Position numbers and translations under genes: made by a program. From assembly GCA_021521415.1 (NCBI GenBank), contig JAIQDT010003865.1, forward strand, positions 124,001 through 188,000: 64,000 nt of DNA, read 5' to 3'. The notes below the pieces were generated by a model, which did not search any database, was not told the DNA's origin, and saw only the letters and a program-made list of their open reading frames with translations. This DNA comes from Bidens hawaiensis. Its lineage: Eukaryota > Streptophyta > Magnoliopsida > Asterales > Asteraceae. Within the stretch, counting starts at the first letter, position 1. Each line of letters begins with the position of its first letter. Below are positions 10,145-53,790 of this stretch, piece after piece.

Positions 10145-10335
10145 ACTCTTGGCGATTGCGATATTAGATTTGATTAGACTTGCTTGCTATATACGTGCTA
10201 TTTGCTTTATTTATTGCTTTGAGTCGTAGGAGTCTAATTTTAAGTGTTAGATATTTTATTCTATTTTCAATTTTTTTTTATTTTCGAGTTTTTTATTAGA
10301 GTTTACCAATTTTGTTTTGTGTGATTTTCAGGTCC

Positions 10336-12687: not shown

Positions 12688-14400
12688 ATGGATAGATGCT
12701 TTGATTTTATTTGTGATACGGATCTTTTGGGAAGTAATGGTTTGGTTGATTGTGATGAGTTGGTTGAGATTTCGGGTTTGCCCGAGATGATTGAGGTAAA
12801 CAAGATTACTTGTGAACGTGAGACGGATTCCGTGGAAAAACCCACTCCGTTGGAGTTGAAAGAACTCCCGTCACACTTAGAGTATGCGTATCTTGATGAG
12901 GGCTCAAACTTGCCTGTTATTGTGTCGTCCAAGCTGACGGAAGAACAAAAGATGAAGCTGATTGACGTATTGAAGCTACACAAGGGGTCGATTGCATGGA
13001 GATTGTCCGATATTAAAGGTAATAGCCCCGCTTATTGCACGCATCGGATTCTAATGGAGGATGAGTACAAACCGGTGGTGCAACCGCAAAGATGTCTCAA
13101 TCCGAATATGCAAGAGGTGGTGAAGAAGGAGGTATTGAAGTTGATGGACGCAGGGATGATTTACCCGATTTCTGATTCTCCATGGGTGACCCTGACCAAA
13201 GTTGTTCCGAAAAAGGGAGGTATGACTGTGGTGATGAATGAGAAGAATGAGCTTATCCCTTCAAGTATGGTTACCGGTTGGCGTGTGTGTATTGATTATC
13301 GGCGATTGAATGATGCCACCCGGAAGGACCACTTCCTGTTGCCGTTTATTGATCAGATTTTGGAGCGTTTAGCAGGTCAGCAATTTTATTGTTTTCTTGA
13401 CGGTTTTTCGGGTTATTTTCATATTCCCATTGCACCGGAGGACCAAGAGAAGACGACTTTTACATGTCCGTATGGCACTTTTGCGTACCGTCGCATGCTG
13501 TTTGGACTATGTAACACTCCGGCCACTTTTCAGCGTTGTATGGTGGCCATATTTCAGGAGATGATCGAGACGTCCATGGAGGTGTTTATGGACGATTTTT
13601 CGGTTTACGGTAATTCCTTCGATCAATGTTTGTCCAATCTTGAAAAGATGTTGAAGAGGTGTATCGAAACAAAGCTGATGTTGAATTGGGAAAAGTGTCA
13701 TTTTATGGTGACGGAAGGGATCGTGTTGGGTCATAAGATCTCGAGAGATGGTATTGAGGTGGATCGGGCAAAGATTGATACTATAAGTAGACTTCCTCCA
13801 CCGATGAATATGAAGGCAATTAGGAGTTTCTTGAGTCATGCAGGATTTTATCGGTGATTTATCAAAGATTTTTCTAAATTACTCGCCTGATGACCCGACT
13901 CCTTGAGAAAGACGTACCTTTTGTTTTTTATGATGAATGTGTGAAGGCGTTCACGTTTTTGAAAGAGAAGCTTGTAAGTGCTCCCATCCTTTATTCTCTC
14001 GATTGGAGTTTGCCGTTCGAGCTCATGTGTGATGCTAGTGATTATGCGGTTGGAGAGATTTTGGGGAAAAGGCGAGATAAACATTTTCACCCAATTTATT
14101 ATACCAGTAAGACGTTGAATGATGCCCAAGAGAACTACACCACCACCGAGACACCACCGAGACGGAGCTCTTAGCCGTTGTTTTTGCCTTTGACAAGTTC
14201 TGCTCGTATCTCGTGCTTTCAAAGACCACCGTTTTTACCGATCATGCAGCCTTGTGTTTTATTTTTCATAAGAAAGACGCGAAGCCTCGTCTCATACGGT
14301 GGATTCTTCTACTTTCCGAGTTTGACATCGAGATTAAATATAAAAGGGGTGCGGAAAACGTAGCGGCCGATCATCTATCCCGCTTAGAGGACCCGAGGAG
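12688..14400 (+). pseudogene. Athila-like pol: reverse transcriptase and RNase H, broken; integrase missing
   Basis: An open frame of 389 codons carries RT blocks: RVCIDYRRLNDATRKDHF, FLDGFSGYFHIPIAPEDQ, FGLCNTPATFQRCM and the active site VFMDDFSVYGNSF. It is stopped at 13855-13857 (TGA after HAGFYR). RNase H continues at 13890 (CDASDYAVGEILG) but an 11-bp tandem duplication (14142-14152 and 14153-14163) shifts the frame. The rest reads DHAALCFIF and [11 protein letters not shown] from 14213. Directly after HLSRLE, where integrase should begin, the sequence jumps to the 3' region. The whole integrase is therefore gone and the copy cannot integrate on its own. Confidence 0.88.
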
Positions 14401-14620
14401 AGAAAGGAGCTACTGGTTGTGGAGCACGTTCGGAGATGGAGGGCATTTATGGAAGAAGACTTTAGCGTCATATTTCATGCGCATACTACCAGCTATGTCT
14501 TTTCCTTTTTACTTTGTTTTTATATTTTAAGTTTTTATTTTTTTAGCTTTGTTTTATTCTTATTTATTTTTGTTCTTTTTGGTTTTGTTTTAAATTTTTT
14601 TGAGTCGTGTTTCCGCCCCT

Positions 14621-17817: not shown

Positions 17818-18032
17818 GGTTTTTGGCGCCATTGCCGGGGACTCTTGGCGATTGCGATATTAGATTTGATTAGACTTGCTTGCTATATACGTGCTATTGG
17901 CTTTATTTATTGCTTTGAGTCGTAGGAGTCAAATTTTAAATGTTAGTTATTTTATTCTATTTTCAGTTTTTTTTTTATTTTCGATTTTTTTATTAGAGTC
18001 TACCAATTTTGTTTTGTGTGATTTTCAGGTAC

Positions 18033-18569
18033 ATGCCACATCTTCGTTCGCAAGGACCCGCCGTTGAATTGTTTTGGACCTACTCCGTGAAGTCCGAGGC
18101 AAATTCGTCTGAAAAGCAACCGGTCACCATAGATACTTCACCAAAGTCATCACCCGCCAATTCACCACCACCAAGTCCTAGACCCGTTTCAATGGCCGAG
18201 AATAACTGCACCGTGTACCAGCAAGCTTTTGAAGGGTTCCATGGAGATCACTCACCCATTGTCGCTCCCGACATTAATAACCCTAACTCGTGGCAGATCC
18301 CATCCTATGTCATGAACAACATCACCCAACACCACCAATTCCATGGCCGTGAAGATGAAGATGCACCGGCACACATCAACCGTCTGACTCGTGTGTTCAA
18401 AACGTTCAATTTGCAAGGTGCTACTGAGGATGCGATCTTCCTTCACTTGTTCCCGTTTACACTTTTGGGTCGTGCCGCCACTTGGCTCGACTCGCATCCA
18501 GCTAGAGCATTCACCACATTGGAGACGCTTCGCAATGCATTCATCAAAAAGTACTTTCCACCTGCTAAA
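18033..18569 (+). pseudogene. Second, truncated Athila-like gag
   Basis: The frame begins MPHLRSQGPAVELF and follows the first gag copy (10336) closely, with two compensating one-base indels near its start. It lacks the TAG stop of the first copy, reading AFTTLETLRNAFIKK through that site. At AKES the sequence switches abruptly into LTR sequence, so all later gag and pol has been deleted. The junction shares only a few bases (about 18566-18571) with the LTR, typical of illegitimate recombination. Confidence 0.85.
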
Positions 18570-18747
18570 GAGTCTAATTAGCTAATAAACGAAATTTAAA
18601 GAGTCTCGTGGATTCGATATCCGAACTTACTTAGCTTTACTAGAGTCGATCTTTTCACTTGTCGAGTTTTAGAGAGTCTAGAGTATTACTTAGTGTTTAT
18701 TTTTAGTTAATTTAGTTAATAAATGTTAAACTACTTTTAGCACATCA
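18570..18747 (+). repeat. Athila-like LTR, copy 3 (right-hand 178 bp only)
   Basis: From AGTCTAATTAGC to ACATCA this matches the last part of LTR copies 1 and 2, with a short internal deletion near 18650. It is followed directly by the TSD TTTGA and the interrupted outer LTR. Confidence 0.9.
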
Positions 18748-34408: not shown

Positions 34409-37400
34409 ATGGCTCAGTTTGTTGAGGATACCGATGAAGATTTTTTCGATAAGTTAGTCATTGATGATAATGATAATGATTTAGATGATGTTAATGATAA
34501 GGCATTGGCTAATTTGAGTGTTAGTGACTTGGGGAAATTAGGTATTAAAGATGATCTAGAGAATAAACATAATGGAATTGAAGGTACTGATGCTGAGCCA
34601 TTGGCTACTTTTAGTGTTAGCGATTTAGGAACTGAATCGGGGAAATTAGGTACCAAAGATTTGAGTATTAGTGATTTAGGATCTGGAATTGAAGATTCTG
34701 GGAAATTTGGTACCGGAGATGATCCTACCGAAAATGAGAATCAGAATAATGGAATTGGAGGTACTAAACCTCCTACATTATCATCAAAAGAGGATATTCA
34801 TTCTCATGATGGCGAGCTATTGGCTAATTTGAGTGTTAGTGATTTAGGAACCAGTATTGAAGGTTTAGGGAAATCAGGTACAAAAGATTATACTACGGAA
34901 ATTGAGAATCTGAATAATGGAATTGGAGGTACTGCTGCTGCTGGTGTTAAACAGGTGCAATGGAGTGATTTTGGTTCTGGATCATATCCTGATTTCTTTA
35001 ATGAATTTGGAGATGATTCGGTTGACCACATAGGGAACGAGGATAATTTTGTTAGCAGTGAGTCAAAAGGTATAGCTGATGATTCATTGCAGGTGAACAA
35101 TGTTGATGATTACTCACAACAGGTGGGTCAGTCAGATCTTGGAACAGATTCTGCGGATCCTAAGAGTAGTCAATACTGGGAGAATCTTTATCCTGGATGG
35201 AGGTATGATGCAAACACTTGCCAGTGGTATCAAGTAGATGAAAGTTATAACGAAACATCGTATGCACAAGTGGTTGATAACGTTAACGCAGATGCTACTT
35301 CTGATTGGACTGCTTCAAATCCGAAACCCGAGGTTTCGTACGTGCATCAATCTTTTGTGGAAAGTGTAGCAGAGACGGTTAAGACTAAAGATGCTACAAA
35401 TTGGAATTCGGTTACTCAATCCATCCGAAACCCGAGGTTTCGTACGTGCATCAATCTTTTGTGGAAAGTGTAGCAGAGACGGTTAAGACTAAAGATGCTA
35501 CAAATTGGAATTCGGTTACTCAATCCAATCACAATACTGATAGTTTATCAAACTGGAGTTCACAAGATATTAGTAAGGAGTATCCTGCACATATGGTTTT
35601 TGATCCTCAATACCCTGGTTGGTATTATGATATGAATGTTCAAGAATGGTGTTCGTTGGATGATTATAATTCGAAGTCAACTGTTGTAGCTCAGGATCCG
35701 GTCAATCAAAACGAGTTTGGTCAAAGCAATACTCATTATAAACATGATCAGAAAACATATAATGGACAGGAACAAGATTACAACTGGAATGGTTCTTCAA
35801 CTACATGGCAACCTAATGCTGTTGTCAATGATCATTCAAAGTCAACTGTTGTAGCTCAGGATCTGGTCAATCAAAACGAGTTTGGTCAATGTAATACTTA
35901 TTATAAACATGATCATAAAACATATAATGCGCAGGAACATTATTACTGGAATGGTTCTTCAACTACATGGCAACCTAATGTTGTCAATAATAATTCAAAG
36001 TCAACTGTTGTAGCTCAGGATCCGGTCAATCAAAACGAGTTTGGACAACGTAATACTCATTATAAGCATGAACAGAAAGCATATAATGGGCAGGAACAAC
36101 ATTATAACTGGAATGGTTCTTCAACTACATGGCAACCTAATATCGTTGACAATAATGCCCCTATTGAAGACTTTAAAAACAGTCAACATGTAGCTAACCA
36201 TGTTAACCAACAGCAGTTTAATAATGGATTTGCTGCATTTTCCGGATCTCAATCGTTTGTTCCATACAATCAACCATTGGAGCAAAGTGAGACCATGAAT
36301 GGGCAAACGGCGTATGATAATCAGAACCAGTTAAGCTATTTGCCGCAGCCAGTTCAAAGCGGTCAACATATGTCACATGGTTCTAGTGCAGGAAGGTCGT
36401 CTGCTGGTTGCCCGCCTCATGCATTGGTTGCTTTTGGTTTTGGTGGGAAACTTATTGTGATGAAAGATAGTAGCGATTTCATGAATGCATCCTATGGAGG
36501 CCAGGTACCCGTATATTTGAATTCCTTTTCACTAAAATCTTTTGAATTCGCAAGTAAGTATGCTTAGAGGTCGCATTATTGGCCTGTTAACTTATGTATG
36601 ATTTAACAAGTTTTATCCCTGTGGGTACAAAACAGCTTAAATGGAGACGGGTCAAATGGATTGAAAGTAGGGGTGTGCATGGTCGGTTTTGGATTCAGAC
36701 TGAACCAAAAACCAAAAATTCGGTTTTTGATTTTTTGAAAACCATTCGGTTTCGGTTTTACCGTTTGGGCTTGAAGTTTTTGGCCGAAAAGAAATGAGCC
36801 CAAAATGATGAATTTGGGCCTAAATCTATTTGACAATTATTAAGTAATTGATTTTATACATTTGGGCTAAAATATATGGGTTACGCTCTTTGTTAAATTC
36901 TTATGATGTACTTACATAACATTCACAATAGAACACGAGAATCCGGAAATTCTGTTTTTTTTTAATGATTGTGCAAAACCAAAACCGAACCAAAAATTCA
37001 GATTTTACGAAAACATAAAACCAAACCGTTGGTTTTTGTTTGGGTTTGGTATGTTTTTTTTTTTTTTTTTGGTTTTACCATTGGTGCTTGAAACTTTTGG
37101 GATGAAAAAAATCAGCCCGGAATAATGAATTTGGGCCCTAAATCTTTTTGTTAATTAATGATTAATTAATTATTATACATTTGGGCTAAAATATTTGGGT
37201 TACACTATTTGTTAAATTCTTATATTTTGCTTACATTCAAAATTAAAAATGAAAATCCATAAAATCGGTTCGTTTTTTTGGATTTAATTACACACGAAAT
37301 CGAAACCGAACCGGAAATTCGTTTTTTACTAAAACATAAAACCAAACCGTTGGTTTATGCATAGGTCAGTAATCAATTATTTTGGTTCGGTTTTTCAGTT

Positions 37401-40400
37401 TCATGCACACTTTTAGTTGATAGTAAAGTAGCTTGAATTTTTGATGTATAAAATTTTTAATCGTTTCCTTAAAAAAGTTGATTATCATTGTTAGTTAGTT
37501 CATATCGGGTTTTAGCCCGTATATAGTTAGATAGTTAGACAAAGCCCATGGGCCGATTATTGGATGTCATTAGGGTTTATTCCTTGTATATATAGGAGTG
37601 TTCACCATTGTATTATTCAAAAAAAAGTCAATAAACATCCTACCTTTTTCATGGTATCAGAGCTACGACTCTCGATCCAAACCCTAGCCGCCACCTGATC
37701 AGAATCCAGATCTGAAAACGAAGTCCGTCTCGCTGCACAAACCCTAGCTGCCGCCACCTCCTGCTCAGTCACAAAATCCTTTTTTTTTCGACACATCCCC
37801 TACCATCACCGCCACCATCGTCACAGGAAAGCCTTGATTTACATTTCCTGAAAAGCAGCCGCCAAACCACCACCGCACGCGCCCCCACGCGCCACCACCG
37901 CTCCGCCATTGCCACCTACGCGCCGGCGAGTGACGGCGCGTGGCCACTTTTCCGGCCACCGGACTTTTTCCAGACGTCTTGTTTTTCACCTCCGAACCTC
38001 CCTGTGGTGATAGTTTTCCGATTCGGACACTTTTATTTTAATGCCCCGGCTCGTGTATTAGTTCTTGCTCGGTGTTCAAATCTTCAGCTTCTATGGCCAA
38101 CAAGACTTCAGAAACTCAGATTGCTCCAGGAATCATCAACTACTCTGCTGTTCTACGCATTCCCATCAAGCTTGACTCCAAAAATTGGAGTTCGTGGAGT
38201 CTCTTTGTCCAACAAGGCCTTACTAGTGTGGACAAAGACGACCATCTCACTAAGCTACCTCCAGATCCGATTACCCGAGAGTGGCGTATCGATGACAGTG
38301 GAATACAAATGGCACTATGGAATGCCATGGAACCACAAATTCTCACTATTGCCCAAAACTTTTCCACTGTGAAGAAGATGTGGGATCACCTTTCTTCATC
38401 CTTTTCGGCTCAAGAGTCTCTATCTCATGCATATTCTGTGGTCCAGGCCTATGGCAAAGCCGAACAAGGCGATTCTACATTCACCGATTACTTTACACGA
38501 TTTTCTAAACTCCGGGTTGAACTTCGTGCTGCATATCCACCCATTACTGATTTACAGGTCCAGGAGGAGCGAAACACCAAGATGGATGTCATGACTTTCA
38601 TTGCCGGTTTATCACCCAAGTATTCGAGCGCTCGACCCTTACTGCTGAGTAACCCTTCGGCTACATCCTCTGTTGAATCAACTTATCATATGTTACGGGA
38701 GATGTATGGTCACGATGCAAATCCTACAGACACATCAGCTATGTATACCTCTACTGGTAAAGGTGTTGGTCGAGGCTCTCATACGACCCACAAAAAGGGT
38801 ATTGGACGAGGTAATGGTCTTGTCTGTCACTATTGCAAGGAACCTGGTCACACTAAATGGGATTCCCCAAATCGTCCCACAGGAAGCCAGCCACCTCCTC
38901 GTCCCAAAGCTCGCATGGCTGCCACCGGTGAGGCTTCAGATCCGGTTGCTACTCCGGCCTACATGTTTAGTGAAGAAGACTATTGTCGACTGCAGCATCT
39001 TCTAAATTCTCAGACACCCGCCCCCGCTCCACGCGCAAATACGGCCAATTCAGGTACATTTCCTGGTCTCACTTCATCTTGGGTTATTGATTCAGGTGCT
39101 ACTCATCACATGACTGGGAACCCCGATATCCTTTCTAGCCTACACAAAGTTTCCCACCAGCCAGTTCGACTTGCTGATGGATCTACTTGCCCCGTCCTTG
39201 GCATTGGATCCGTCACCAATTCGTCAAACCTAAACCTCTCTTCTATTTTGTTTGTTCCTAAATTTTCCGATAGCCTTTGTTCCGTGAGCCAACTTGCTAA
39301 ACAAAATAATTGCTTTGCTAAGTTTTATCCTACTCATTGTATCTTTAAGGAGCTGGGGATGAACCGGCTGATTGGCACAGGTTTTGAATCAGGAGGCCTC
39401 TACTGCTTAACCTTCCCGCCACGTCCTACAGCAAACACTTGCGTTTCAAAAGTCAAAGAGGACCACTGCCGGTTAGGTCATCCCTCTACAGCGGTTATGA
39501 GGCAAATGAGACCAGATTTACCACTTTCGTCTTTTAATTTTCATTGCGAGTCATTTCTGCTTGGTAAACACACCAGGCGTCCCTATCCCCCTAGAGTGTC
39601 TAGTCAAGTCAGTGGTTGTTTTGAACTTTTGCATTCTGATGTATGGGACCCTTGCCCTACTAAATCTACATTGGGTTTTGAATATTTTGTTACCTTTATT
39701 GATGATTATTCTCGTGCTACTTGGGTTTATTTATTGAAATCTTGTAGTGAGGTGTTTTCCACCTTTCGTGAATTTAATGCTTATGTTCAAAACCAATTTA
39801 ACACAACAATAAAAACTCTACGATCTGATAATGCAAAAGAATATTTTTCCACCGACTTCACATCATACTTAAACACCCATGGGATTGTTCATGAATCCTC
39901 GTGTGCATATACATCCCAACAAAATGGTGCCTCTGAACGCAAAAATCGTCACCTGTTGGATGTTGCTCGCACACTCATATTTCAATCTCATGTTTCACAT
40001 CGCTTCTGGGGGGAAGCCGTTCTCATTGCCACATATCTAATAAATCGCATGCCCATACCCGTTCTTCATGGTAAAACACCATTTTCTATCCTTTTTCCTA
40101 CAGGCACTCAATTTCCTCTAGCACCTAAAGTTTTTGGTTGTGTGGCTTATGTTCATGATCATCGTCCGACGGTCACTAAACTTGACCCCCGAGCTATCCG
40201 TTGTGTCTTTCTTGGTTACTCCCGAGTTCAAAAGGGGTATCGGTGCTATAGCCCCTCTTCACCGATACTTTACTAGTGCCGATGTCACCTTTCATGAGTC
40301 ATGTCCCTACTTTCTAGCCTACCACTTCTGTGTCTGACCCTTTCCCCGACCTTGATCTACCCACCTCTATCCTCATCCCCACATTTCCCATGCCAGTATA

Positions 40401-43400
40401 CCAGATTCCCCAGTATTAACTACTTCTGATCCTGCTCCTACGGGTCCACCGACAGACCCTTCACCTCTACTCTTCCCATATAGTCGTCAACGTCGTAATC
40501 ACTCGTCACAGCCTCCTGATTCCCAATCGGACCATGATTTGTCCTCAGTTCCACCTCCCGCTTCTGAGACCAACCTCCCCCCACCCACTCCCGAACCTAT
40601 TCCTACCTCCACTACACCATATGATCCTCCAGGTGCCCCTTTTCCTGATATACCTATTGCCTTTCGCAAAGAGCCTCGATGTTGCACCCGTTACCCGATT
40701 CACGATTATGTTGCCTATTCTCATCTGTCTCCTGAATCTCATGCCTACACTACTACCCTTGATTCCTACCCGATTCCCAGGAATGTGATGACAGCTCTTG
40801 CCCATCCAGGATGGAGGCGGGCTATGGAGGAGGAAATTGGGGGCTCTTAGATCCAATCATACATGGGATCTTGAAACGCTTCCTGTAGGGAAGCGTGTTG
40901 TTGGTTGTCGTTGGGTATTCACGGTCAAACTGCACCCGGATGGCTCTTTACATCGCTTAAAGGCGCGATTGGTCGTCAAGGGTTATTCTCAGGCATATGG
41001 CATTGATTATGATGAAACTTTCTCGCCGGTTGCTAAAATGCCATCCGTCCGTATTTGCATTGCTCTTGCTGCCATTAATCATTGGCCGCTCCACCAGCTT
41101 GATGTCAAGAACGCCTTCCTTAATAGTGTTCTTGAGGAGGAGGTGTATATGGAGCAGCCACCAGGGTTTATTGTTGAGGAGGAGGCCTCGAAAGTTTGCA
41201 GACTACGTCGTTCTCTTTATGGTCTTAAACAGTCTCCCAGGGCATGGTTTGGTCGATTCTCGAGTGTTATGGGACAGTTCGGGATGACTCGTAGTGCATA
41301 CGATCACTCTGTTTTTTTTAGACACCACAAAGGGAAAAGGATTATTGTAATTGTTTATGTGGATGACATCATAATCACAGGTGACGATACCACTGGGATC
41401 ACTGAACTCAAACAGTTCCTTCAGACTCAGTTTCAGGTTAGCGACTTAGGTCCGGTACTTCCTCGGCATAGAGGTATCTCGCTCTCCACAAGGAATACTT
41501 CTCTCTCAACGGAAGTATGTCCTTGATATGTTGACTGAATGCGGCTTGTTGGGTTGCAAACCAGTTGATACCCCAATGCTTCCTACAAAGAAGCTCCTCC
41601 CAAAAGAAGGGGATCCGATGAAGGATCCCGAGCGATACAGACGGTTGGTTGGTAAACTTAATTATTTAACTGTCACGCGACCGGATATTTCTTTTTCTGT
41701 CAGTGTTTTGAGCCAATTCATGGCTGAACCATGCACCAGTCACTGGGATGCTGCTCTTTGTGTCTTAAGATATCTCAAGGCCACACTAGGCCTTGGCATC
41801 CTATATTCTGATCAGGGTCATTGTCGAGTGGGAGCTTTCACAGAAGAGGGAGATGGTCGGATATCAGGTTTCTCAGACGCAGACTGGGCAGGTTGTCCGA
41901 TTTCACGACGATCTACTACTGGGTATTGTGTGTTTGTCGGAGGAAATCTTGTGTCATGGAAAAGTAAGAAACGACACACGGTTTCTAGATCGAGCGCTGA
42001 ATCGGAGTATAGAGCTATAGCAGATGTAACATCGGAGATGACATGGATTCGTCGTCTTCTAATAGAACTTGGAGTTGTTTCTAAAGACTTGATGCGGCTA
42101 TACTGTGATAATCAATCAGCCATTTATATAGCCAAGAATCAAGTTTTTCACGAGAGGACGAAACACATTGAGGTTGATTGCCATCTTACCAGAGACCGGG
42201 TAGTAGGCACACAAACAGATCCTCCATCCATTCAACCGATTCATATTAAGACAAACTTTCAGCTTGCGGATATTCTCACTAAGCCTCTTCGGAAATCTCA
42301 AATAGATTTTATTTGTAACAAGTTGGGCATGATTAACATATATGCTCCAACTTGAGGAGGAATGTTAGTTAGTTCATATCGGGTTTTAGCCCGCATATAG
42401 TTAGATAGTTAGACAAAGCCCATGGGCCGATTATTGGATGTCATTAGGGTTTATTCCTTGTATATATAGGAGTGTTCACCATTGTATTATTAAAAAAAAA
42501 GTCAATAAACATCCTACCTTTTTCAATCATTAAAGTTACATAGTTCTTGTAACCGTTTTTGACACTATAGAAAGGGTAAAAATACTGAACGAAAAGTGTT
42601 TCAGTCAATCCACCTCTACTAGTTTTGTTGGATCCACCTTTATTATTTAGTATGCTATTATTATTATTATTATTGTTGTTGTTATTATTAAATATCTTTA
42701 TTCACTCTCTAGTCTTTATTTTGTTGAAGGAATCAAATTCTGGGTCAATTTCAGTTCTTAACTTAGCAGAAGTGGTAACCAGAGGAACAGATGTACATGA
42801 CTATTTTCACACTCTCAGCCAGCACCAGTTTCCGGGCCCACTGTCCGGTGGAAATGTTGGCAGCAAAGAGTTGAACAAGTGGATTGATGACAGGATCACA
42901 CACTCTGAAACATCTGATATGGATCATAACAAAGGTGGAGTTCAAAGATTGCTTCTTTCTCTGCTGAAAATAGCGTCACAACATTATGGAAAATTTAGAT
43001 CTCCTTTTGGCTCAGATGCTGGCTTAAAGGTAAAATGGACATATCAGTTTCTTTCTGTTTCTATCAGTAACCATAATTGGCATTGTAGTTTATGATGTTA
43101 TCATGTTTGATATTGTTATATTCTGTTTTGGTGGTCTGTTTTCATGTAGCACTTTTCTCTAGTCTTTTTATGGAATAGTTCGATTATACTTGTTATGTCA
43201 ATGGTTAATTCTTGTTCGGTTTGAAAATGAAACAACCGAACCAAATAACCAGTTTGGCTTTTAGTTATGAAAATTTTGAATTTGGTTATAACTGAATATC
43301 CCGTATCAACCGAATAATCGAGTATCGGAAATATTTTATTAAGAAAATGTCACATATCTATTCAATCAATCAATCATACCCAGTAAAATCCCACCGACAG

Positions 43401-43513
43401 CAGAGCTATAGGTAGGGTCTGGGGAGGGTGGGATGTAGGCACACCGTACCTCTATCCAAAGGAATAAAGAGGTGGCTTCCAGAGAGACCCTCGGCTCTAA
43501 GAACATGTGTATG

Positions 43514-43553
<40 letters not shown>

Positions 43554-44266
43554 AACAGTTATATAAAAAAACTACTACTAATTATAATAATATTAATAAT
43601 AAGGTCGCAGTTTAACCGCAATATAAAAGCTAATAAAATGTCACATATCTATATAAGAATTAATTAAACTACTTGATAAAAAAATTATACCAAATTAACT
43701 TGACTTTATATGTTACTAGTGGATAACAAAAACTAAAGAAGTTAATACAAAACTATTTGACAAAATATTTTTAGCTAAAAAATCGATTCGGTTTATTCGG
43801 CTTTGAACCGAAGGTGAACAAAATTCTTATTCAGTTACATGCTTATTTTCTGTGGTTCGGTTTGGTTTTCAATTACGTTCGAATAAATTACTAAACCGAA
43901 TAAACTGAAAACCCGAACAGAAGAACACCCCTAACAAAACAGGCATGTCAGGCAGTTTGGAAACATTTTTTTTATTAAGAATTGGCTGGGTTGGGTTGGC
44001 CTGGAGCACTTTTTGGTCCAAATATTTTGATTATATATAGATAGGTATCTGTTTTTCAGTAACTAAATATCTAATTTTGATTAAAATGATTTAGGATGTT
44101 TTTTAGCAATGCAACATTGCAACTATATTTTTGTCAACCTTTGATCCTTTTAACTAATTCTTTTACTTTAGACCACAAGAGCTATTTAAACCAAATCAAT
44201 CCATTCTTTAGTGGTTTAAAATTGCCACTCCTACTTACACTGATCAGGTCAATTTAAATTAGGTCA

Positions 44267-44313
<47 letters not shown>

Positions 44314-47300
44314 TGCGTTCTACATAAACGAGTCGACAAATTTTTTGCTACCAGTGTAAAGTGATAACTGATTATTGATGCTTCAAATAGGAAAGTGATG
44401 CTCCTGAAGTAGCTGTTGCTAGACTGTTTGCATCCGTGAAAAACACTGCAGAATACAACAATCATGGTGCTTTTGGCCATTGCTTGCAACAAGTACCTTC
44501 AGAAGTACAAACTCAGGTATTTATTTCGCTTCCCCCCCCCCTTTCTGCTACTTAGAAAAGCATCATACCCTAGGCTTGTAAACGAACCAAACAAACACGA
44601 AATGAGCAGGTTAGTGTTTATCCAGTTAAGTTATATGTTTAACTTTAACCGAACGAACGTGGTTTTGCCGCTCATTAAGAAAATGAACATGTTTGTTTGC
44701 TAACAGTATGAATGAGCGATTCACAAACATACATGGCCTATAACTGAGTTAAAACTAGTTAAAAGTAATGTGAAAAACAATGTGTTGGGCCTGAAAAGTT
44801 ATTAAAACTATACTAAGCTGTAACAGGACAAAAAAATGTAAATGAATATGTTAACGAACTAAGTTAAACAAACGTAAACTAATAAACATGTATAATGTGT
44901 GTATTATAATTTAGGAAACCGCTGCTGAAGTCCAAACTCTGCTTGTTTCTGGTAAAAAGAAAGAGGCTCTTATGCGTGCACAAGAAGGCCACTTGTGGGG
45001 GCCCGCACTTGTTCTTGCAGCCCAACTTGGTGATCAGGTCTCTCTTTACACACACATGAAGTCACGAATACACTTTGTAAACATAAATATATTTTTTTTT
45101 GTAGTGAATCTTATTTATTTTCTTTCTTTGTGTGATTGGTTGGAATTGTTATTGCAGTTTTATGTAGACACGGCTAAGAAAATGGCTCTTGCCCAGTTTG
45201 TATCGGGATCACCTTTGCGGACGTTATGCCTACTTATTGCTGGTCAACCAGCAGATGTGTTCGCAACTGATGCTATGACAGATGGTGCTGTAAATATGTT
45301 CCAACAACCTACACGGGTAATGAATGACATTAATCATTTGTGTTTTGTTCAGTTAATTTAGTCATGTTTCTTTATTACCACTTTATACCATAACTTAGTT
45401 TATGAAGAGTATATATTCATTGACTTATGAACGGGTCAATTTGGGCTATGATTGTCTAAGCCCTAAGGTGAGTCAAATTGTGGAAACATTCAAAGGGTTT
45501 GAAAAAGGGTTGCTTGTTCATATTCGCTCGTCAAGAAAATGAATGTGTTTGTGTTCATTATGTTTATTCATTAATCGTGTAAATAAACGAACGGTTCACG
45601 AACGAACATTACTGGACATAGATGAAAGAACATGACTGAGCAAACAACAATCAAAGCAAGCATTTACATTAATTCGTTGAGCCTAAAAATTTATTAAACT
45701 AAACTACATTGTATTCATGTAATGCGTTTAAAAATTTTAACTTGATCAAACATAAACCGACGAATGAACATAAACGAACGAGAACAGGGTATGTGTTCAT
45801 TTTCGTTTGGTTAACTAAACAACCAATTTTTTTGTTCATTTTGTAAATAAACGAATTTTCTGTCAAATGGTTCACAAATAGTTCACTAAATGTTTAGTTT
45901 GTTTGCCAGCCTAGGTTGAAAGTCACCCAAAGTCTATTTTCTTAATAATAATGCTCTTTGTAATACATCATTTCGTGTTTCACTTACATAACATCAGTTG
46001 TTATTTTGCAACAGGCTCAATCTAGTGTTAATAGTATGCTTGATGACTGGAAGGATAATTTGGCAGTAATAACTGCCAACAGAACAGATGATGAATTAGT
46101 TCTTATTCATCTCGGAGATTGTTTGTGGAAAGAAAGGAGTGACGTAAGTAATATTTTTAAGGGTTGTTTCATCATTTATTATATGTTGTTTTCTCATTAT
46201 ATATATGAAAATTGGTTTTTACACTTATGTAATTTTTTTATTACGCATATATGTAACTTTGTTATTACACATATGTGAACTTGTCATTACATATATGTAA
46301 TCACAAAATATAATAAATTATAAAGGAGTGACGTAAGTAATATTATTTAAAGGTTGTTTTGTCATTTATTATATGTAGTTTTCTCATTGTATATAGTAAA
46401 TTGGTTTTTTCACTTATTTAAATTGTTTATTACACATATATGTAACTTTGTTATAACACATATGTAAACTGGTCATTACATATATGTAGTCACAAAAGTT
46501 ACGTATAATAAATTATATAACTACCTAAAACAACCCTCAAATAATATCAAATATAAAAAATAAATAAAATAAAATGATTGGTTGTAAGGAGTTCTTAAAG
46601 TAAATTTTTGGAGTTCTGTAGAGAACCTAACCCTAAAATGATTGGTTGTAAAGAGTTCTTTAAGCTCTTAACTTTTTGGAGTTCTGTAGAGAACCTAAGC
46701 CTACATATTTGTTTTTATAACTGTAAAAAATGATGCAGATTATTGCGGCCCACATTTGCTACTTAGTTGCAGAAACAAACTTTGAACCATATTCAGACAG
46801 TGCCAGGATGTGTCTCATTGGTGTAGATCACTGGAACCATCCTCGTACATACGCGTCCCCTGAGGCTATTCAGGTGCCGCCTCATCTTGCTACAATTTAT
46901 ATTTTCAGTATTCTGAAGTTTTACTTCTATACCCTTTATTGGTTTGTTGAAATAATAATATTTTGTGTTTTGAATGCAAACAGAGGACAGAGGTGTATGA
47001 ATATTCAAAGGTGCTTGGAAACTCTCAATTCATGTTACTACCATTCCAACCGTATAAACTTATTTACGCTCACATGTTGGCTGAAGTTGGAAGAGTGGCG
47101 GACTCGTTAAAGTATGTTTAATCTTTTTCTATTTCACATGTTTACAAGGTTTTTGTTTGTTCGTATAAATTTAACCAAACAAACGATCGAGCATGAATGG
47201 TTAAATGAACAGGGGTTTCTTGTTCGTGCTTGTTCGTGAAGAAAATGAACATGCTTGTGTTCGTTTATGTTCATCCGTTAACAGTATGGTTCGCGAACGA

Positions 47301-50300
47301 ACATTACTAAACAAAGATGAACGAACATGAAAGAGCTAAAACTCGTTAAAAGTAGTGCGAAGAACAATGTGTTGAGCCTAAAAAGTTACTAAAACTAAAC
47401 TAAGTTGTAATGGGTCAAAAAATTTCAAATGAATATATTAACGACCAAACTTAAACAAACTTAAACTAACGAACACAAACAATCTCAATGAACTAATACT
47501 CACGAGCATAACTGAACAAACAAGACATATGTTCATGTTCATTCTTTTAATAAATAACCTAACTTCTTGCCAAAAGATTCACGATCTCACACGATATCAT
47601 CTTAATTCAGATACTGTCAAGCCATAACGAAATCCTTAAAAACCGGACGAATTCCTGAAGTGGAAACATGGAGACAATTGGTTATATCCTTAGAAGATAG
47701 AATAAAAATTCACCAACAGGTATGATGTTCTATTTTGTTAAACTCCCCTAAACTAAAAAACAAATAATTAAATTTTATTTATTTATTTTTTATTTTTTGC
47801 AGGGTGGGTTTTCTACAAACTTAGCTCCTGGTAAAATAGTTGGGAAATTGCTCAATCTTTTTGACAGCAGTGCACATCGTGTTGTTGGCGGCACAACGCC
47901 ACCTGTCACATCAACGTCTAGCAGCACCATGCAAAACAACCATCAACAACCACCACAAAAGGGTCTTAGGTTTTTTACCAGCCAATCAACAATGGCGATG
48001 TCATCATTAGTGACATCACCATCTATGGAGCAAATCAATCAAGCTGATGGAAACCGAAGGATGATGCATAGCCGCAGCGCTTCAGAACCTGATTTTAGTC
48101 GATCTACCAACCAGGTTGTGATAATATTCGTGTCAATATTATTGTTTCTCATCCCATTATTATAATTAATTTTTGTTTTAGTTATATTTGTTGTAAAAAA
48201 ATGATGTAGGATCAGGATGACTTATTAAAGGAAAATTCAACTGATTCACAAAGAAAAGGTTCTGGGAATACTTCACGATTTGGTCGGTTCGCTTTTGGCT
48301 CTGGGATTTTACAAAAGACGGTTAGCATGGTATTAAAGCCTCGCAACGACAAACAGGTAGCGCTTATTATGCATAGAGGCGGGAAAACGGGTGGGTTGGG
48401 CCTTTAGGTAAAACGTCAAAATTAGGGGTGTAAACGAGCCAAGCCACTCGTGAGCTACTCGAGATCGGCTCGATGATAGCTCAAATCGATTCTAGCTTAA
48501 AGGAGCAGGAAATTACTCAAAATAAGTTGTTTAATAAACGAGCCGAGCTGCATTTATCGAGCTGACTCATGAGCCTAAACAAGGCTATTATGTTTACAAT
48601 TTTTGTTTAATATATCTTCATATAATAATAATGATAATAATAATAATTATTATTATTATTTTTATATATAAAGTTATGTTACAAATAACTAACAAATATA
48701 TATTATGTTATACATAAATTTTTTAATTATAAAAATATACAAAGTAAATTTGAATATAAATAAATCAATATATAAACACACCAACCTCAAGCTTGAAAAA
48801 ACTACTTATGAGCCGGGCTCAAGCTTTAGAAATAAAGCTGAAAACTGCCCGAGCTCGAGTTTGGGCTTGGCTCGGCTCGTGCACACCCTAGTCAAAATAG
48901 GTAATTTGAAGTATGCATCCAAGAGGGTTTGGTCGGATGTTTGGGTTAGGTTGAGTTGCAAAAAATAGTTTTATACATCTTGTTTACTTTTATGAATAAA
49001 GAATACTCAAAATATGATCACAAAAACCATATTTTTACAAAAAAAAAGCGTTCTCTATCATGAAAAAGCGATTAGGAGGTTTTATGCATTTAAATATGCT
49101 TAAGATAGCTTTCAACAAGTTGTATGTGATGTGTTTCCTTTTTTGTTAAATTAAATCATATTACTGAATATCGTGACCGTTAGATATAGAACATTACCAA
49201 AAGGTCCCATTTATAGGTACATGGGTTGTAAATGACCCTCTAGTTGTATATCATGATTAAATTTACTAAATAATTACAATGGAGGAACCCTTATACGGGA
49301 AAGAACCCTAGAAAAGCCGTATCTCGGCCCGTGGGACATATACAAATAAACACTTCTAGTAATAATACTATAACTATAATAACACTTGTCTTGAAGTCAA
49401 CTTTCATAGATGTTAATCATGCACAACTTGTTACAAATAAAATCTATAGAATTGTGTCTTGACATGAATCGGCTGAATAGAGGTAGGATTTGTTTGAATT
49501 CTCACCCCACGATTAGGGGTGTAAATGAGCCAAGCCGTTCGTGAGCTACTCAAGATCGGCTCGCTAACAACTTGAATTGAGTCAAGCTTAAACGAGCTTG
49601 ATCTTGAGCTCGAGCTTGAGCCTAGAAGTAAGCTTGTTTAACAAACGAGTCTGACTCCAACTTGCAAGCCTTAACGACCATATTGTTCCATATAATTTGT
49701 ATTTATATCTTAAATATATAAATTTATAATAATATTATTATACATAAAATTATGATAAAAGTAACTAAAAAAATATATATTATATTATTCATATAAACTA
49801 TAATTCAAATATATATATCAAGTATCAACCAATTATAATGTGTATAAATTAATTAATAAATTGTCAATGTGCCGAGCTGAGCTTTAGCGGAGCTTAAGCT
49901 TGAAAAACAACTCACGAGCCGAGCTTGAGCTTTAGAAATAGAAGTCGAAACAAGCCTGCTTAATCTCGACCTCTCATACATTAAGCGAACTGAGCTTGAC
50001 TCTAGGTGAACTCTGGCTCGGCTCAGCTCGATTCGGCTCGTTAGCACCCCTATACACGATCCCTCATATTATGACAGCTGACTCAAACTCTAGAAAACCC
50101 TATCTCAGGCTCATGGGCCATATTCAAATAACCCTATTAATAATAACAATACAGTAACTATAATTACCAGTTCACATTTATGTTTGTAGGCAAAATTGGG
50201 CGACACAAATAAATTCTATTATGACGAGAAACTAAAAAGGTGGGTAGAAGAAGGCGTTGACTCACCAGCAGAGGAATCGACCCTTGCTCCACCACCGACA

Positions 50301-50495
50301 ATGGCGACTTTCCAAAACGGTTCACCAGATTATAGCTTAAAAACTGCTTTACGAACTGAATCTATGACCAACGGGAACTCTGAATTTGCAAGCCCAAGTC
50401 CTGCTAGTCATACATCAGGCATTCCACTTATTCCACCCACCACAAACCAGTTTTCTGCACGTGGAAGGACTGGGGTTCGAGCTAGGTAACTCAAC

Positions 50496-50540
<45 letters not shown>

Positions 50541-53500
50541 GTTATGCATAATTGCATAGTTTTAAACACTGTGATGGTGCTTGGGCTTGCACTTTGAATG
50601 TGACTATATGTTTAGATAATCAGATGTTGTTTGACAAGTTTTGATTATTTTAAGGAATTAATAGGTATAATGGCATTTCTGTGTAAATTTTGAAACGAGA
50701 CTTTATCGTGAGTTAAGTTACAAGAAAGGGTAGTTTGGTATTTCTTTTATACGACTAACAATGAGCTATATAATTAAGACAGTGTTTTAGAAAATACTGT
50801 TTTTATGTGGTTATGCTGTTTAAACTTCTAAAATCTATGCTGTGTCCCAAATTCTAAGTTAAAATGACCTAAAAGGACATACATATATGTGTAAAAAAGA
50901 TGTTTAAAAATTCACTTAAATAGGTTAAAAGAATTGGTAAATACATCCCACACCTAATAAATAAGTAACTGGTTGTGTCACATGTCACAATTCTGTGAGC
51001 CCAGGATTCATTTTCTCGCTTTTCTTATTTCACCCTTTCACATTTATAGTAATAAAACGTAGTATGTTAAATATTAGATCAAATATACTAACTTATGTGA
51101 GGTATTTGATTTGAATCATGTCTTATTCCAAAATATCGTTTTATAATTTCTAAATCTTCATTACTAACCATTTAATATTTTCTTTATTCAACCCGTGAAT
51201 TGAAATACACGGGTTTCTAACCTAGTTTATGTTGGTTATGAGGCTAGATTTGCATATTGAACACAAAACAAAACAAAACAAAACAAAACACCGGTTTGGT
51301 CAAACAATCTGATCGACTCTTTTCATTGACGGAAACTGAAATACAATTAAGCAAAGAACAAATGAATAAAACAACCCTAAACAAGCGAGAAAATAGCCCA
51401 TACACAAGTAGCATAAACGTGTAGTAGCCGGCTCCTAAAAGATAGAAAACATGGCCCATAATCTAACCCACTACTTTTACCCTTAACCCTAATTAAAAAC
51501 TAATAATAAACGTGCTGAATTAAAAGTTTCTTCTGCAACACTAAATAAACCGAATCTAACCTGTTTTTGACCCGTTGACCCATTAACCCGCTACTTGACC
51601 GGTGAACAAACGATTAACCCAGCAATCACTCCCTTAATCGTTTATTCACTGCACTCATTTGTTGTTAACCTACTAGCACTGGTTCGTCTTCTATTAAATT
51701 TGCTTCTTGGCTTTCCCATCTTGGACACTCGGATATATATTGCCTCTATTCATTGCATTTGTAGCACTTCAACGTTGCTCTTGTTCTGGTGTACTCGACC
51801 ATCTCCTCGTTTCACGATTCAGGCCCCCACAACCACAATGCTCACACCTTTGCTCCTGTTCTTTTGCCTTTTCATCAGAATTTGCAAATAGAAGTTGATT
51901 TTGCTTGGCTTGGATCTCCTCATCCTTGATCCAATCTTCAGAAGCTTTAAACTGGCCCACAACGTTAACATAAGCGATTGTCTTCAAGTCTACAACCTGT
52001 TATATAGAAGCCACCATATGAATGAAATGTTTAGGCAACCCGTTAAGAAACCTCTTAACCAGTTTTGTTTCTTCACTCAGACTACTTGTCAGCAAACTCA
52101 TCAATGATGCCTTGGTCCTTCATCTTGAGATTTTCAAACTCTCCCATTAGAGTTTGAAGTCTTGCCTCACGGGTCCAACCCGCTCCCAAATGACGGGTTC
52201 TAAGAGAACCCCGCATCTCCTTTGCGGTTTCAAGATTCCCTATTTGCAAAACTTGTTCTTTGGGTATAGCTTGGAACAAGAGAGCTTTGCCAAATTATTC
52301 TTCTTGGCATTCAAATTTGTTCCTGGTTCAATCATGTTCAACATCCCATGAACGTTGAAAATAATCGCATCTTCTGGCCCATACCATGTAATTTGTGGAC
52401 GACAACACCGGGCATCGAAGATCCACAGTGTTGTTCTCCTTAACGGTGACCAAAGCTTGATTCTCCGGTTGAACCATACTCGCAAATCCCTGCTCTGTCA
52501 AAGATGAATAATCAATTAAAACACTGTTGAAATTATTACCTGCAAACACCTTTTGCCACCTTCCTCCTGCTGTTTTAAACCGCCGTTCACTGCAGACCAG
52601 ACACCTCAGATTGCTGCAGCCTTGCAACTTTCTGATCAGTCGCCAGTAATCAGAATACAACCGAATCGATCTCCGCTTTAATACCAATTGTTGGTTATCA
52701 GTCTAGATTTGCAGATTGATAAATGATAACAAAGCAAAATACTGGTTTGATCAAACAATTTGATCGACTCTTTTCATCGATAGAAACCGGACTACAATTA
52801 AGCAAGAACAACTGAATAAAATAACCCTAAACAAGCGACTAAGTAGCCCGTACACACGTAGCATAAACATGAAGTGGCCCACTCCTAAAAGATAGAAAAC
52901 ATGATCCATTATCTGACTACTTTTACCCTTAACCCTAATTAAAAACAAATTATAAACTTGCTGAACTGAAAACCCTGCAGAAAGAAATAAACTGGATCTG
53001 ACCCGTTACTGACCCATGACCCATTAACCGGCTACTGACCCGTTGGCCCGTGAACAAACAATTAACCCAACAGGTATGAATGTCATATTTAAAAAATGGG
53101 TATATTTGTTATTATGATTTTTGGTTGGGTAAATATGATATTATACCACGTTTTGAGTGGATTTTCTTTTTTTATACTTTAGTACTTAGTTTTGTTCCAG
53201 ATGGTATGAAACCGGCTATCTAAAACTGAATTTTGACTCCTAAACAATCATATATATAAACAAAAAGCAATCCTTTTATATAAGCATTAAAACTTAAATC
53301 TGGCACATGTTTTGACAGGTATGTTGATACTTTCAATAAAGGAGGTGGAAACGCTACCAACTTATTCCAACCACCTTCCGTTCCACCTATCAAACCGAAA
53401 ATGGGTCCCACCCCGAACCCAAACTTCTTTGTTCCCACAGCTGCCCCTGCATCCGAACAAACAGCAGCCGATATCATTCCTGATAACCAAACTCCAATGG

Positions 53501-53790
53501 TTTCTTCTGGAACCAACCAATCAGCAATGGGCCTGCAGAAATTTGCGTCAATGGATGACATATCAAAAGGAGGATTATTATCATCATCAACATCCACGTC
53601 ATCATTTTCTTATGATCACATGTCACGAAGAACATCTTCATGGAGTGGAGGTTTGAATCAAGATCTTTCGGTTTCTGGTACCGGTAGTGAACAGAAGGCG
53701 GTTGGAGGTATGAATCAGCATATGTTTATGCTGCGCGGGACTGGGTTTACACACTCCTCTAATGATGATCTCCTTGAAGTTGAATTTTAA
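34409..53790 (+). CDS. SEC16: SEC16 homologue, COPII coat scaffold at ER exit sites (13 coding exons; frame depends on a duplication in exon 1)
   Basis: SEC16 organises ER exit sites and COPII vesicle budding. Exons I place: 34409-36504, 42730-43029, 44391-44516, 44915-45037, 45158-45316, 46015-46143, 46739-46873, 46984-47111, 47611-47719, 47803-48114, 48210-48356, 50190-50485, 53319-53790. All have GT..AG borders and join in phase to about 1,475 residues if one 104-bp copy in exon 1 is left out. Diagnostic sequence: DTDEDFFDKLV at the N-terminus; WENLYPGWRYD (about 257); central conserved domain from HALVAFGFGGKL (about 636) through ISVLNLAEVV and GPLSGGNVG; helical ACE1/Sec16_C region about 765-1067 (AQEGHLWGPALVLAAQLGDQ, GSPLRTLCLL, AHICYLVAE); C-terminal NKFYYDEKLKRWVEEG. 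The start codon follows TTTTGTG. Length is somewhat above the Arabidopsis proteins (about 1,350). Read through without splicing the duplication, the frame stops at 35471-35473. Confidence 0.9.
35319..35526 (+). repeat. Perfect 104-bp tandem duplication in SEC16 exon 1
   Basis: 35319-35422 and 35423-35526 are identical. 104 is not a multiple of three, so translation straight through leaves the frame and meets TAG at 35471-35473 after about 354 residues. Each copy contains CCCGAGGTTTCG, so AG|GT occurs at 35331-35334 and again 104 bp on. Removing 35333-35436 as a GT..AG intron would exactly restore the single-copy reading frame (phase 0). The unit codes for PKPEVSYVHQSF... in frame. An assembly or sequencing artefact is also possible. 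Confidence 0.95.
35671..36159 (+). repeat. Three in-frame ~53-residue repeats in SEC16 exon 1
   Basis: Units at 35671-35835, 35836-35994 and 35995 to about 36159 each begin SKSTVVAQD and end WNGSSTTWQPN. They are Asn/Gln-rich and differ by in-frame indels of whole codons. They lie between the WENLYPGW-like blocks and the central conserved domain, in the disordered, fast-evolving part of the protein. The N-terminal part (about 34500-34960) has a second set of repeats built on LANLSVSDLG and NNGIGGT. Confidence 0.88.
36505..37483. repeat. SEC16 intron 1, left part, with an internally duplicated repeat
   Basis: After the exon 1 donor, 36668-37415 is a repeat with GTGTGCATGGTCGG near the left and ATGCACACTTT near the right, imperfect inverted ends. 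It contains two related halves (about 36720-36960 and 37030-37260) that share GAATTTGGGCC and CATTTGGGCTAAAATAT. A non-autonomous DNA transposon is likely, but I could not fix its TSD. No coding sequence. Confidence 0.45.
37489..37651 (+). repeat. Copia 5' LTR (163 bp)
   Basis: It runs TGTTAGTTAG to CCTTTTTCA. Against the 3' LTR I count two substitutions in 163 bases and no indel. A TATA-like TTGTATATATAGG lies near 37593-37605. Confidence 0.95.
38093..42355 (+). pseudogene. Copia gag-pol polyprotein, frameshifted
   Basis: Starting MANKTSETQ, the first frame reaches 40276 and holds gag, a knuckle CHYCKEPGHTKWDS whose last Cys is Ser, the protease WVIDSGATHHM and the integrase. The integrase has CRLGH, a CESF in place of CxxC, and the catalytic triad in HSDVWDP, RSDNAKEY and NGASERKN. 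The frame breaks near 40250 and between 40340 and 40540. RT runs in 40798-41526 (WVFTVKLHPDGSLHRLKARL, FLNSVLEEEVYMEQPPGF, YVDDIIITGDD), breaks again near 41455, and RNase H ends it (HTVSRSSAESEYRA, DILTKPL). The copy cannot make a full polyprotein. Confidence 0.92.
42363..42525 (+). repeat. Copia 3' LTR (163 bp)
   Basis: Same length and ends as the 5' LTR. It is followed by the TSD ATCAT and about 200 bp of remaining intron 1 before SEC16 exon 2 at 42730. Confidence 0.95.
43372..43503 (-). mobile_element. SINE-like fragment in SEC16 intron 2
   Basis: On the - strand it reads GAGCCGAGGGTCTCTCTGG, then a central CCACCCTCCCCAGACCC and GGGATTTTACTGGGT before a short ATTG repeat tail. This matches the widespread plant Au-type SINE body as I remember it. 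The tRNA-like 5' part is missing; a poly(A) run (on +, about 43517-43549) adjoins it instead. The surrounding intron 2 (43030-44390) also has GGTTCGGTTT-rich repeats and a (TTA)n run at about 44268-44311. Confidence 0.6.
44268..44311. repeat. (TTA)n microsatellite in SEC16 intron 2
   Basis: About fourteen uninterrupted TTA units lie some 80 bp before the exon 3 acceptor. Confidence 0.95.
44572..44892. mobile_element. MITE-like copy in SEC16 intron 3
   Basis: Begins CCTAGGCTTGTAAACGAAC and contains GAACATGTTTGTTTGCTAACAG and an AACAATGTGTTGGGCCTG block shared with introns 5 and 8. The inverted end CCTAGGCT is also seen at the right end of the intron 5 copy. No coding capacity. Confidence 0.6.
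45500..45914. mobile_element. MITE-like copy in SEC16 intron 5
   Basis: Shares GAACGAACATTACTGGACA and TTGAGCCTAAAAA blocks with the copies in introns 3 and 8, and ends GTTTGCCAGCCTAGG, the inverted form of the intron 3 copy's start. No coding capacity. Confidence 0.55.
46133..46510 (+). repeat. 189-bp tandem duplication copying the exon 6 end and splice donor into intron 6
   Basis: AAAGGAGTGACGTAAGTAAT at 46133 (last 11 exon bases plus the donor) recurs at 46322, and the following AT-rich intron sequence is also repeated with some divergence. A second intact-looking donor therefore lies 189 bp into intron 6. A shorter duplicated unit (GATTGGTTGTAA, about 46575-46705) follows before exon 7. 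Confidence 0.85.
47150..47540. mobile_element. MITE-like copy in SEC16 intron 8
   Basis: Carries GCGAACGAACATTACTAAAC, AACAATGTGTTGAGCCTA and related blocks of the same family as in introns 3 and 5. No clear TSD and no coding capacity. Confidence 0.55.
48423..48890. mobile_element. hAT-type MITE in SEC16 intron 11, copy 1
   Basis: The 468-bp element starts TAGGGGTGTAAACGAGCC and ends GGCTCGTGCACACCCTA, imperfect inverted ends. Identical 8-bp TSDs GTCAAAAT flank it (48415-48422 and 48891-48898), as in hAT elements. No transposase. Confidence 0.87.
49514..50052. mobile_element. hAT-type MITE in SEC16 intron 11, copy 2
   Basis: Starts TAGGGGTGTAAATGAGCC and ends GGCTCGTTAGCACCCCTA. The flanking octamers CCCACGAT and TACACGAT agree at six of eight bases, a decayed TSD. 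It is the same family as copy 1 about 620 bp upstream, and older by that measure. Confidence 0.75.
50499..50538. repeat. (CT)n microsatellite after exon 12 donor
   Basis: About twenty CT units begin some 13 bases after the SEC16 exon 12 donor (GCTAG|GTAACT). Confidence 0.95.
50946..51225 (+). mobile_element. Small Helitron candidate in SEC16 intron 12
   Basis: The right end has an inverted ACCCGTG...CACGGGT (51191-51214) eight bases before CTAG, followed by T, the Helitron 3' signature. The left end TCCCACACCTAATAAA after an A is proposed by likeness to the candidate at 54573 and is less sure. No Rep/helicase coding, so it would be non-autonomous. Confidence 0.45.
51230..53072 (-). mobile_element. 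Gag-only, non-autonomous Ty1/copia element in SEC16 intron 12
   Basis: Two similar LTRs (51230-51624 and 52689-53072) bound an interior of only about 1.06 kb. On the - strand each LTR starts TG(T/C)TGGGTTAAT and ends AACCAACA. The PBS ATTGGTATTAAAGC follows the 5' LTR (at 52688 downwards) and a purine-rich AAGGGAGTGAT precedes the 3' LTR. The interior carries gag but no pol, so it resembles the terminal-repeat elements with GAG (TR-GAG). A TSD is not evident. Confidence 0.85.
51770..52477 (-). pseudogene. Copia-type gag (DUF4219/UBN2-like), frameshifted
   Basis: From the - strand start at 52477 it reads MVQPENQAL, then LSSTNYMVWARRCDYFQ (copia gag N-terminus). After frame changes it continues LGAGWTREARLQTLMGEF, MKDQGIIDEFADKL and CEHCGCGG near the end, a partial zinc knuckle. 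At least three frame breaks prevent one protein. Such gag could only move with pol supplied by another element. Confidence 0.75.

Follow-up and report, generated by a model that had tools for sequence, protein, structure and literature searches.

Results and Discussion

The SEC16 gene and the duplication in its first exon

The window analysed here, a stretch of 64,000 nucleotides of Bidens hawaiensis DNA on contig C3865, carries on the forward strand a SEC16 gene (34409..53790) coding for the COPII coat assembly scaffold. A spliced alignment to a Cynara SEC16B protein, with the ends checked by hand, returned 13 coding exons, all on the forward strand: 34409-36504, 42730-43029, 44391-44516, 44915-45037 and 45158-45316 (exons 1-5), 46015-46143, 46739-46873, 46984-47111 and 47611-47719 (exons 6-9), 47803-48114, 48210-48356, 50190-50485 and 53319-53790 (exons 10-13). 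The open reading frame at 44915-45358 matched Pfam PF12931 (TPR_Sec16, Sec16 Sec23-binding domain) with 25.2 bits against a cut-off of 22.

Exon 1 contains two directly adjoining copies of a 104-nt unit on the forward strand, copy 1 at 35319..35422 and copy 2 at 35423..35526, with 0/104 differences between them, as reported by the first-pass annotation. The junction between the copies reads CTCAATCC|ATCCGAAACC and shows 1 nt of microhomology. Since the exact repeat extends by one extra matching base to 35527, the boundary of the unit is ambiguous by 1 nt. The length of 104 nt cannot be divided by 3, and an mRNA keeping both copies reaches an in-frame TAG at 35471..35473 (+), 16 codons into copy 2; the frameshift and the stop that had been described for the straight translation were thus reproduced. 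When one duplicate is left out, the frame runs for 1475 codons and is free of further stops and frameshifts, so that the locus has the features of a frameshift allele, namely a duplication that is not a multiple of three, an early stop and an otherwise intact frame. The possibility that the gene was already a pseudogene was rejected, as it shows no lesion besides the 104-nt repeat.

A Tandem Repeats Finder (TRF) scan was carried out on 254,000 bases, consisting of the window and 19 ten-kb loci picked for SEC16 and hence a non-random sample. The 104-nt repeat gave the sole row with a period of at least 40 and at least 95% matches, and together with the perfect identity of the copies this uniqueness ruled out a chance or low-complexity origin. 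The genome searched in this work comprised 15,902 contigs and 3,474,515,312 bases. According to the available part of the assembly report (PMC9113482), the published haploid consensus of B. hawaiensis, a hexaploid, has 15,904 contigs and 3,475,153,191 bases, was built from PacBio HiFi reads with HiCanu, and had its alternate haplotigs largely, though not fully, removed and archived separately.

An assembly or read artefact, with a single 104-nt copy in the true genome, would account for the perfect identity of the duplicates and for the single unit found in the remaining SEC16 copies and in the homologs examined (see below). We regard it as very unlikely, because the use of HiFi reads and HiCanu stated in the same part of that report makes a misassembly of a 104-nt repeat improbable, some 116 kb separate the repeat from the closer end of the contig, and its being the only such repeat in the 254 kb, within the limits of a non-random sample, speaks against a general artefact pattern.

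Sister copies and age of the duplication

Two close SEC16 copies, located on contigs C324 and C604, match the window gene at about 90% of DNA positions and carry the 104-nt unit once; the best ungapped match to the unit shows 9/104 differences in C324 (8.7%) and 11/104 in C604. The frames of both copies are open across the 13 coding exons and their translations are free of stops, and the frames of two more distant copies, C3779 and C13893b, are open as well. A further copy, C13893a (C13893:154000-163999), is a degenerate SEC16 in which nine frameshifts and one stop were called; it forms a tandem pair with an intact SEC16 located about 23 kb downstream. No second allele of the window gene was detected among the 13 candidates scored in the assembly searched, the next best DNA match being at 90%.

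The window protein, the database protein P0051 and the C324 protein were aligned with 23 database proteins, picked among the 120 matches listed of 319 and including P0001. The duplicated segment was found in none of the 24 others aligned, i.e. the 23 database proteins and C324. The 23 include four entries with the label Bidens hawaiensis; P0052 is probably C604 again, and P0069 spans the region only partly. A duplication common to the paralogs was rejected for those examined, each having a single unit, and its absence from C324, C604 and the 23 sampled database proteins makes the 104-nt duplication a derived state.

The absence of differences between the duplicates had been taken as the mark of a very recent event or of an artefact. 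The identity itself is beyond question, but it bounds the age only loosely, the 95% upper limit being 2.8% divergence. At equal rates, this would make the duplication younger than about one third of the C324 split, that is recent, although not necessarily brand new.

Comparison of the window gene with C324 returned dN 0.063 and dS 0.150 over 1382 codons. For exons 2-13 the values were dN 0.037 and dS 0.127, with dN/dS 0.295 (810 codons), and for the part of exon 1 upstream of the repeat dN 0.156 and dS 0.223, with dN/dS 0.70 (266 codons). When the distant C3779 copy was used as reference, dN across exons 2-13 was 0.127 for both the window copy and C604, and 0.128 for C324. This equality and the low exon 2-13 ratio indicate that most of SEC16 was constrained until recently. 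Upstream of the repeat in exon 1, dN to C3779 was 0.488 for the window copy versus 0.338 and 0.347 for the sister copies, pointing to a possible dN excess in the N-terminal part of the window gene. The high exon 1 ratio reflects either relaxed constraint or misaligned internal repeats.

Evaluation of the putative precise intron

Each 104-nt copy carries an AGGT (at 35331 and 35435). The first-pass annotation had read these as an AG|GT donor and acceptor, 104 nt apart and in phase 0, which the duplication itself had supplied for a new intron. The coordinates proved correct: the coding stretch between the ATG at 34409 and 35332 holds complete codons only, which places the GT...AG segment 35333..35436 (+; GAG|GTTTCG ... 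CCCGAG|GTT) in phase 0, and by arithmetic its removal returns the open frame and restores the 1475-aa protein.

The 79 introns used to build donor and acceptor matrices come from seven SEC16 copies, which are related and hence non-independent and include the degenerate one. Real sites were scored with the same intron position left out in all copies, and the resulting values are matrix scores rather than a splicing assay. The donor at 35333 scored 5.3, above 16/79 real donors, with 92% of 239 exonic GTs scoring lower. The acceptor at 35436, CAATCCATCCGAAACCCGAG|G, scored -13.7, with none of the 79 real acceptors below it (lowest -4.4), and was the second lowest of the 248 AGs within SEC16 exons, itself included. 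It has a G at -3, which occurs in 0/79 SEC16 introns, and two T residues in the -20..-4 tract, where the real minimum is four (n=79); its total of 10 pyrimidines is ordinary, 46/79 real introns being at or below this figure. A CTCAA of the yUnAn type is located at -22. The AT content of the segment is 57.7%, the lowest values being 63% among the 38 introns of up to 150 nt and 57.3% among all 79. The donor and acceptor sum exceeded none of the 79 real pairs. The low acceptor score was robust: training genes and pseudocounts were varied in 18 combinations, and in each of them no held-out real acceptor came out at or below 35436. Moreover, among 14 AGGT sites scored in exon 1, the duplicated one was the worst acceptor (-13.1 in single-copy context).

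The significance of the AGGT pair was evaluated by simulating a 104-nt duplication at each of 1828 positions in the single-copy form of SEC16 exon 1. An exact reversing AGGT pair was generated in 930 simulated duplications (51%), with a median score of 8.5, and in 40% of the simulated duplications a reversing pair outscored the bottom twentieth of the real introns; the observed duplication fell in the lowest 0.9% of the 930. The perfect reversibility, singled out earlier as worthy of note, is true, but it adds no coincidence of its own: any tandem duplication that contains AGGT reverts to the original once a unit is removed, and about half of the simulated duplications share this property.

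Precise intron birth, with 35332 joined to 35437 as in the AGGT model of Rogers, is very unlikely and the least probable of the readings discussed here. In its favour stand the duplicated AGGT in phase 0 with exact restoration of the protein, a donor in the range of real donors, the yUnAn-type motif, and the finding that dual-specific AGGT sites in human tandem repeats can be functional in spite of a weak consensus (PMC10809524, in the portion available). On the other side are an acceptor scoring under every real one and worst among the AGGT sites, its G at -3, T-poor tract and exon-like AT content, and a database protein that implies a different acceptor. Thus, gene, coordinates, frame arithmetic and derived duplication stand, while the intron proposed on their basis is poorly supported. 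The RNA test suggested in the first-pass annotation, a search for the 35332/35437 junction, is confounded, because the spliced product would have the same sequence as a transcript of a single-copy allele.

Candidate alternative frame-restoring introns and the database protein

The database protein implying a different acceptor is P0051, an NCBI entry named 'SEC16A homolog [Bidens hawaiensis]', with 100% listed identity and 1474 residues, bearing both PF12931 and PF12932. It differs from the 1475-residue reading solely at the repeat junction, where IRNP replaces NHNTD. The intron that it implies (35437..35543, +, 107 nt) uses the AGGT of copy 2 as donor and TGATAG|T as acceptor, the latter lying in unique sequence just outside the repeat. 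It reproduces P0051 exactly and, among the single deletions tried, is the sole GT-AG choice to do so. Its acceptor scored -6.3, above 0/79 real acceptors, and its pair sum of -1.0 lies below all 79 real sums.

A second candidate, 35364..35476 (+, 113 nt), has the form AAA|GTGTAG ... TGTAGCAG|A and causes a net loss of three codons. Its donor scored above 4/79 and its acceptor above 55/79 real sites, with a sum of 8.4 above 18/79. Among the 78 frame-restoring pairs listed, 35437-35543 ranked 18th and 35333-35436 ranked 59th; among the 23 pairs of 80-130 nt, 35364-35476 came first, 35437-35543 5th and 35333-35436 17th. A GTACGT donor at 35338 that appeared strong by eye was discarded, as it scored -2.3, above 1/79 real donors, the low value being due to its exon side.

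The P0051 intron is either a workaround of the annotation or a duplication-born gain of the imprecise kind. Given its standing below all real pairs and its rank, it would not be picked on splice scores alone, and predictors and spliced aligners may insert short introns to bypass frameshifts. Our own first spliced alignment put an intron across the repeat, together with two exon 1 introns that the later model did not need. Among transcript-like entries, the fragment search returned four matches, none labelled Bidens and one nameless, and the accessible part of PMC11170221 mentions no B. hawaiensis RNA data. The 35436/35544 and 35363/35477 junctions are free of the ambiguity with single-copy transcripts.

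The main rival to a disabled copy is a nascent, imprecise intron, which we consider unlikely, if a good deal less so than precise intron birth. Here the frameshift caused by a zero-divergence duplication would be repaired by splicing at latent sites in or beside the repeat, such as 35437-35543 or 35364-35476, yielding a near-normal protein; nonsense-mediated decay (NMD) would remove transcripts retaining the segment, and the sister copies would shelter the gene while the sites improve. The exact match of 35437-35543 to P0051 and the scores of 35364-35476, above all its acceptor, are consistent with this, as are the many imprecise cases among duplication-born introns and a plant precedent in potato RdRp (PMC3443670 and PMC4974935, respectively, as far as their available text goes). 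It is opposed by the low score and rank of 35437-35543, by the tendency of prediction tools, seen with our aligner at this very repeat, to bypass frameshifts through short introns, and by the weak donor at 35364. The mere availability of a frame-restoring pair is not evidence, because some local pair was found at 1818/1828 simulated positions (99.5%), and at 37% it scored at least 8.4, equalling 35364-35476.

Interpretation and comparison with known systems

Since the splice signals are poor, a disabled copy with intact sisters is more likely than a new intron. We thus favour a recent frameshift by tandem duplication, probably tolerated since intact sister copies exist, with loss of function as the likeliest consequence. 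The remaining probability, beyond the readings discussed, is assigned to something else, and all these weights are judgements. A null allele and an assembly error had been named as the alternatives to intron birth, and the choice was right.

According to the favoured reading, the 104-bp duplication would have arisen, presumably by break repair, in exon 1 of one of three close SEC16 copies of the hexaploid B. hawaiensis, after the split from C324 and C604. Most transcripts would retain both copies, stop at 35471-35473 and yield no full-length SEC16, a loss that would be tolerated because the sister copies are functional; in addition, some splicing may take place, at a low level or imprecisely. 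The HiFi reads, HiCanu assembly and hexaploidy given in the available part of PMC9113482 fit a real repeat and redundant copies. An earlier in-frame change in copy number of a unit of about 160 nt in exon 1 (35663..36156, +; three copies in the window, two in C324 and C604) also supports a disabled copy. Against it stand exons 2-13, which show no decay (dN/dS 0.295), although a young lesion would also lead one to expect this, the intron across the repeat region implied by P0051, and the score of 35364-35476, within the range of real introns. Furthermore, new introns have been reported with weak sites, stops and NMD as backup (PMC2809761, in its accessible portion), so weak sites do not exclude splicing.

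Tandem AGGT duplication was correctly cited as a described mechanism of intron birth: the model is established, and the available text of a review (PMC3443670) counts 188 events by tandem genomic duplication, many of them imprecise. The vertebrate ATP2A1 case (Hellsten et al. 2011, via the parts available of PMC4974935 and PMC3443670) resembles the SEC16 one in the exonic duplication of an AGGT and in the exact restoration of the protein by removal of one unit. However, a polypyrimidine tract and a branch point are described for ATP2A1, and an experiment in ATP2A2 reproduced the event, whereas the SEC16 tract is poor in T and belongs to a putative intron. Potato RdRp, according to the available part of PMC4974935, shares with SEC16 a plant gene, a lineage-specific tandem duplication and a new junction at latent sites. 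In potato, where transcriptome support is listed, the repeat extends across the boundary of a pre-existing intron, from which it takes over acceptor, tract and branch site. The SEC16 repeat is wholly exonic and cannot inherit 3' signals in this way.

In human UBC and VCX3A (PMC10809524, portion available), as would hold for SEC16, one and the same AGGT acts as donor as well as acceptor and a single unit makes up the intron, but the human repeats are multi-copy arrays, in contrast to two copies in a plant. In the same source VCX3A is an insertion polymorphism, and AGGT dual-specific sites work with a weaker consensus. The novel Drosophila introns in the accessible text of PMC2809761 are similar in the insertion that is not a multiple of three, the stop upon retention and the weak sites, splicing of SEC16 being putative. 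Finally, the small, direct and adjacent copy is reminiscent of the small tandem duplications formed by break repair (PMC8355091, part available), with 1 nt of junction microhomology in the one SEC16 allele. Our literature search, in which SEC16 and Bidens were never queried jointly, retrieved no report on the duplication locus.

Introns born by duplication are rarely observed before their source has decayed, and the authors of the 2024 human study considered the VCX3A polymorphism, to their knowledge, the sole evolutionary intermediate of its kind (PMC10809524, portion available). If spliced, the SEC16 allele would provide a plant intermediate open to testing, its sister copies serving as controls. 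If unspliced, it would be a common frameshift and a warning that an AGGT combined with frame arithmetic has little predictive value.

Other repeats and mobile elements in the window

SEC16 exon 1 repeatedly gains or loses tandem units, the in-frame one of about 160 nt having been kept. Degenerate in-frame repeats, with spacings such as 168 and 219, occur at 34500-34940 in the N-terminal coding part, where dN/dS versus C324 is highest. Intron 1 contains a young Copia-type LTR retrotransposon (37489-42525) with 163-bp LTRs showing two differing sites; the target-site repeat ATCAT is present on both sides, and the element is absent from this position in C324 and C604. Upstream of SEC16, open frames at 10300-14530 and 17997-18581 resemble, by eye, gag and reverse-transcriptase pieces of LTR elements.
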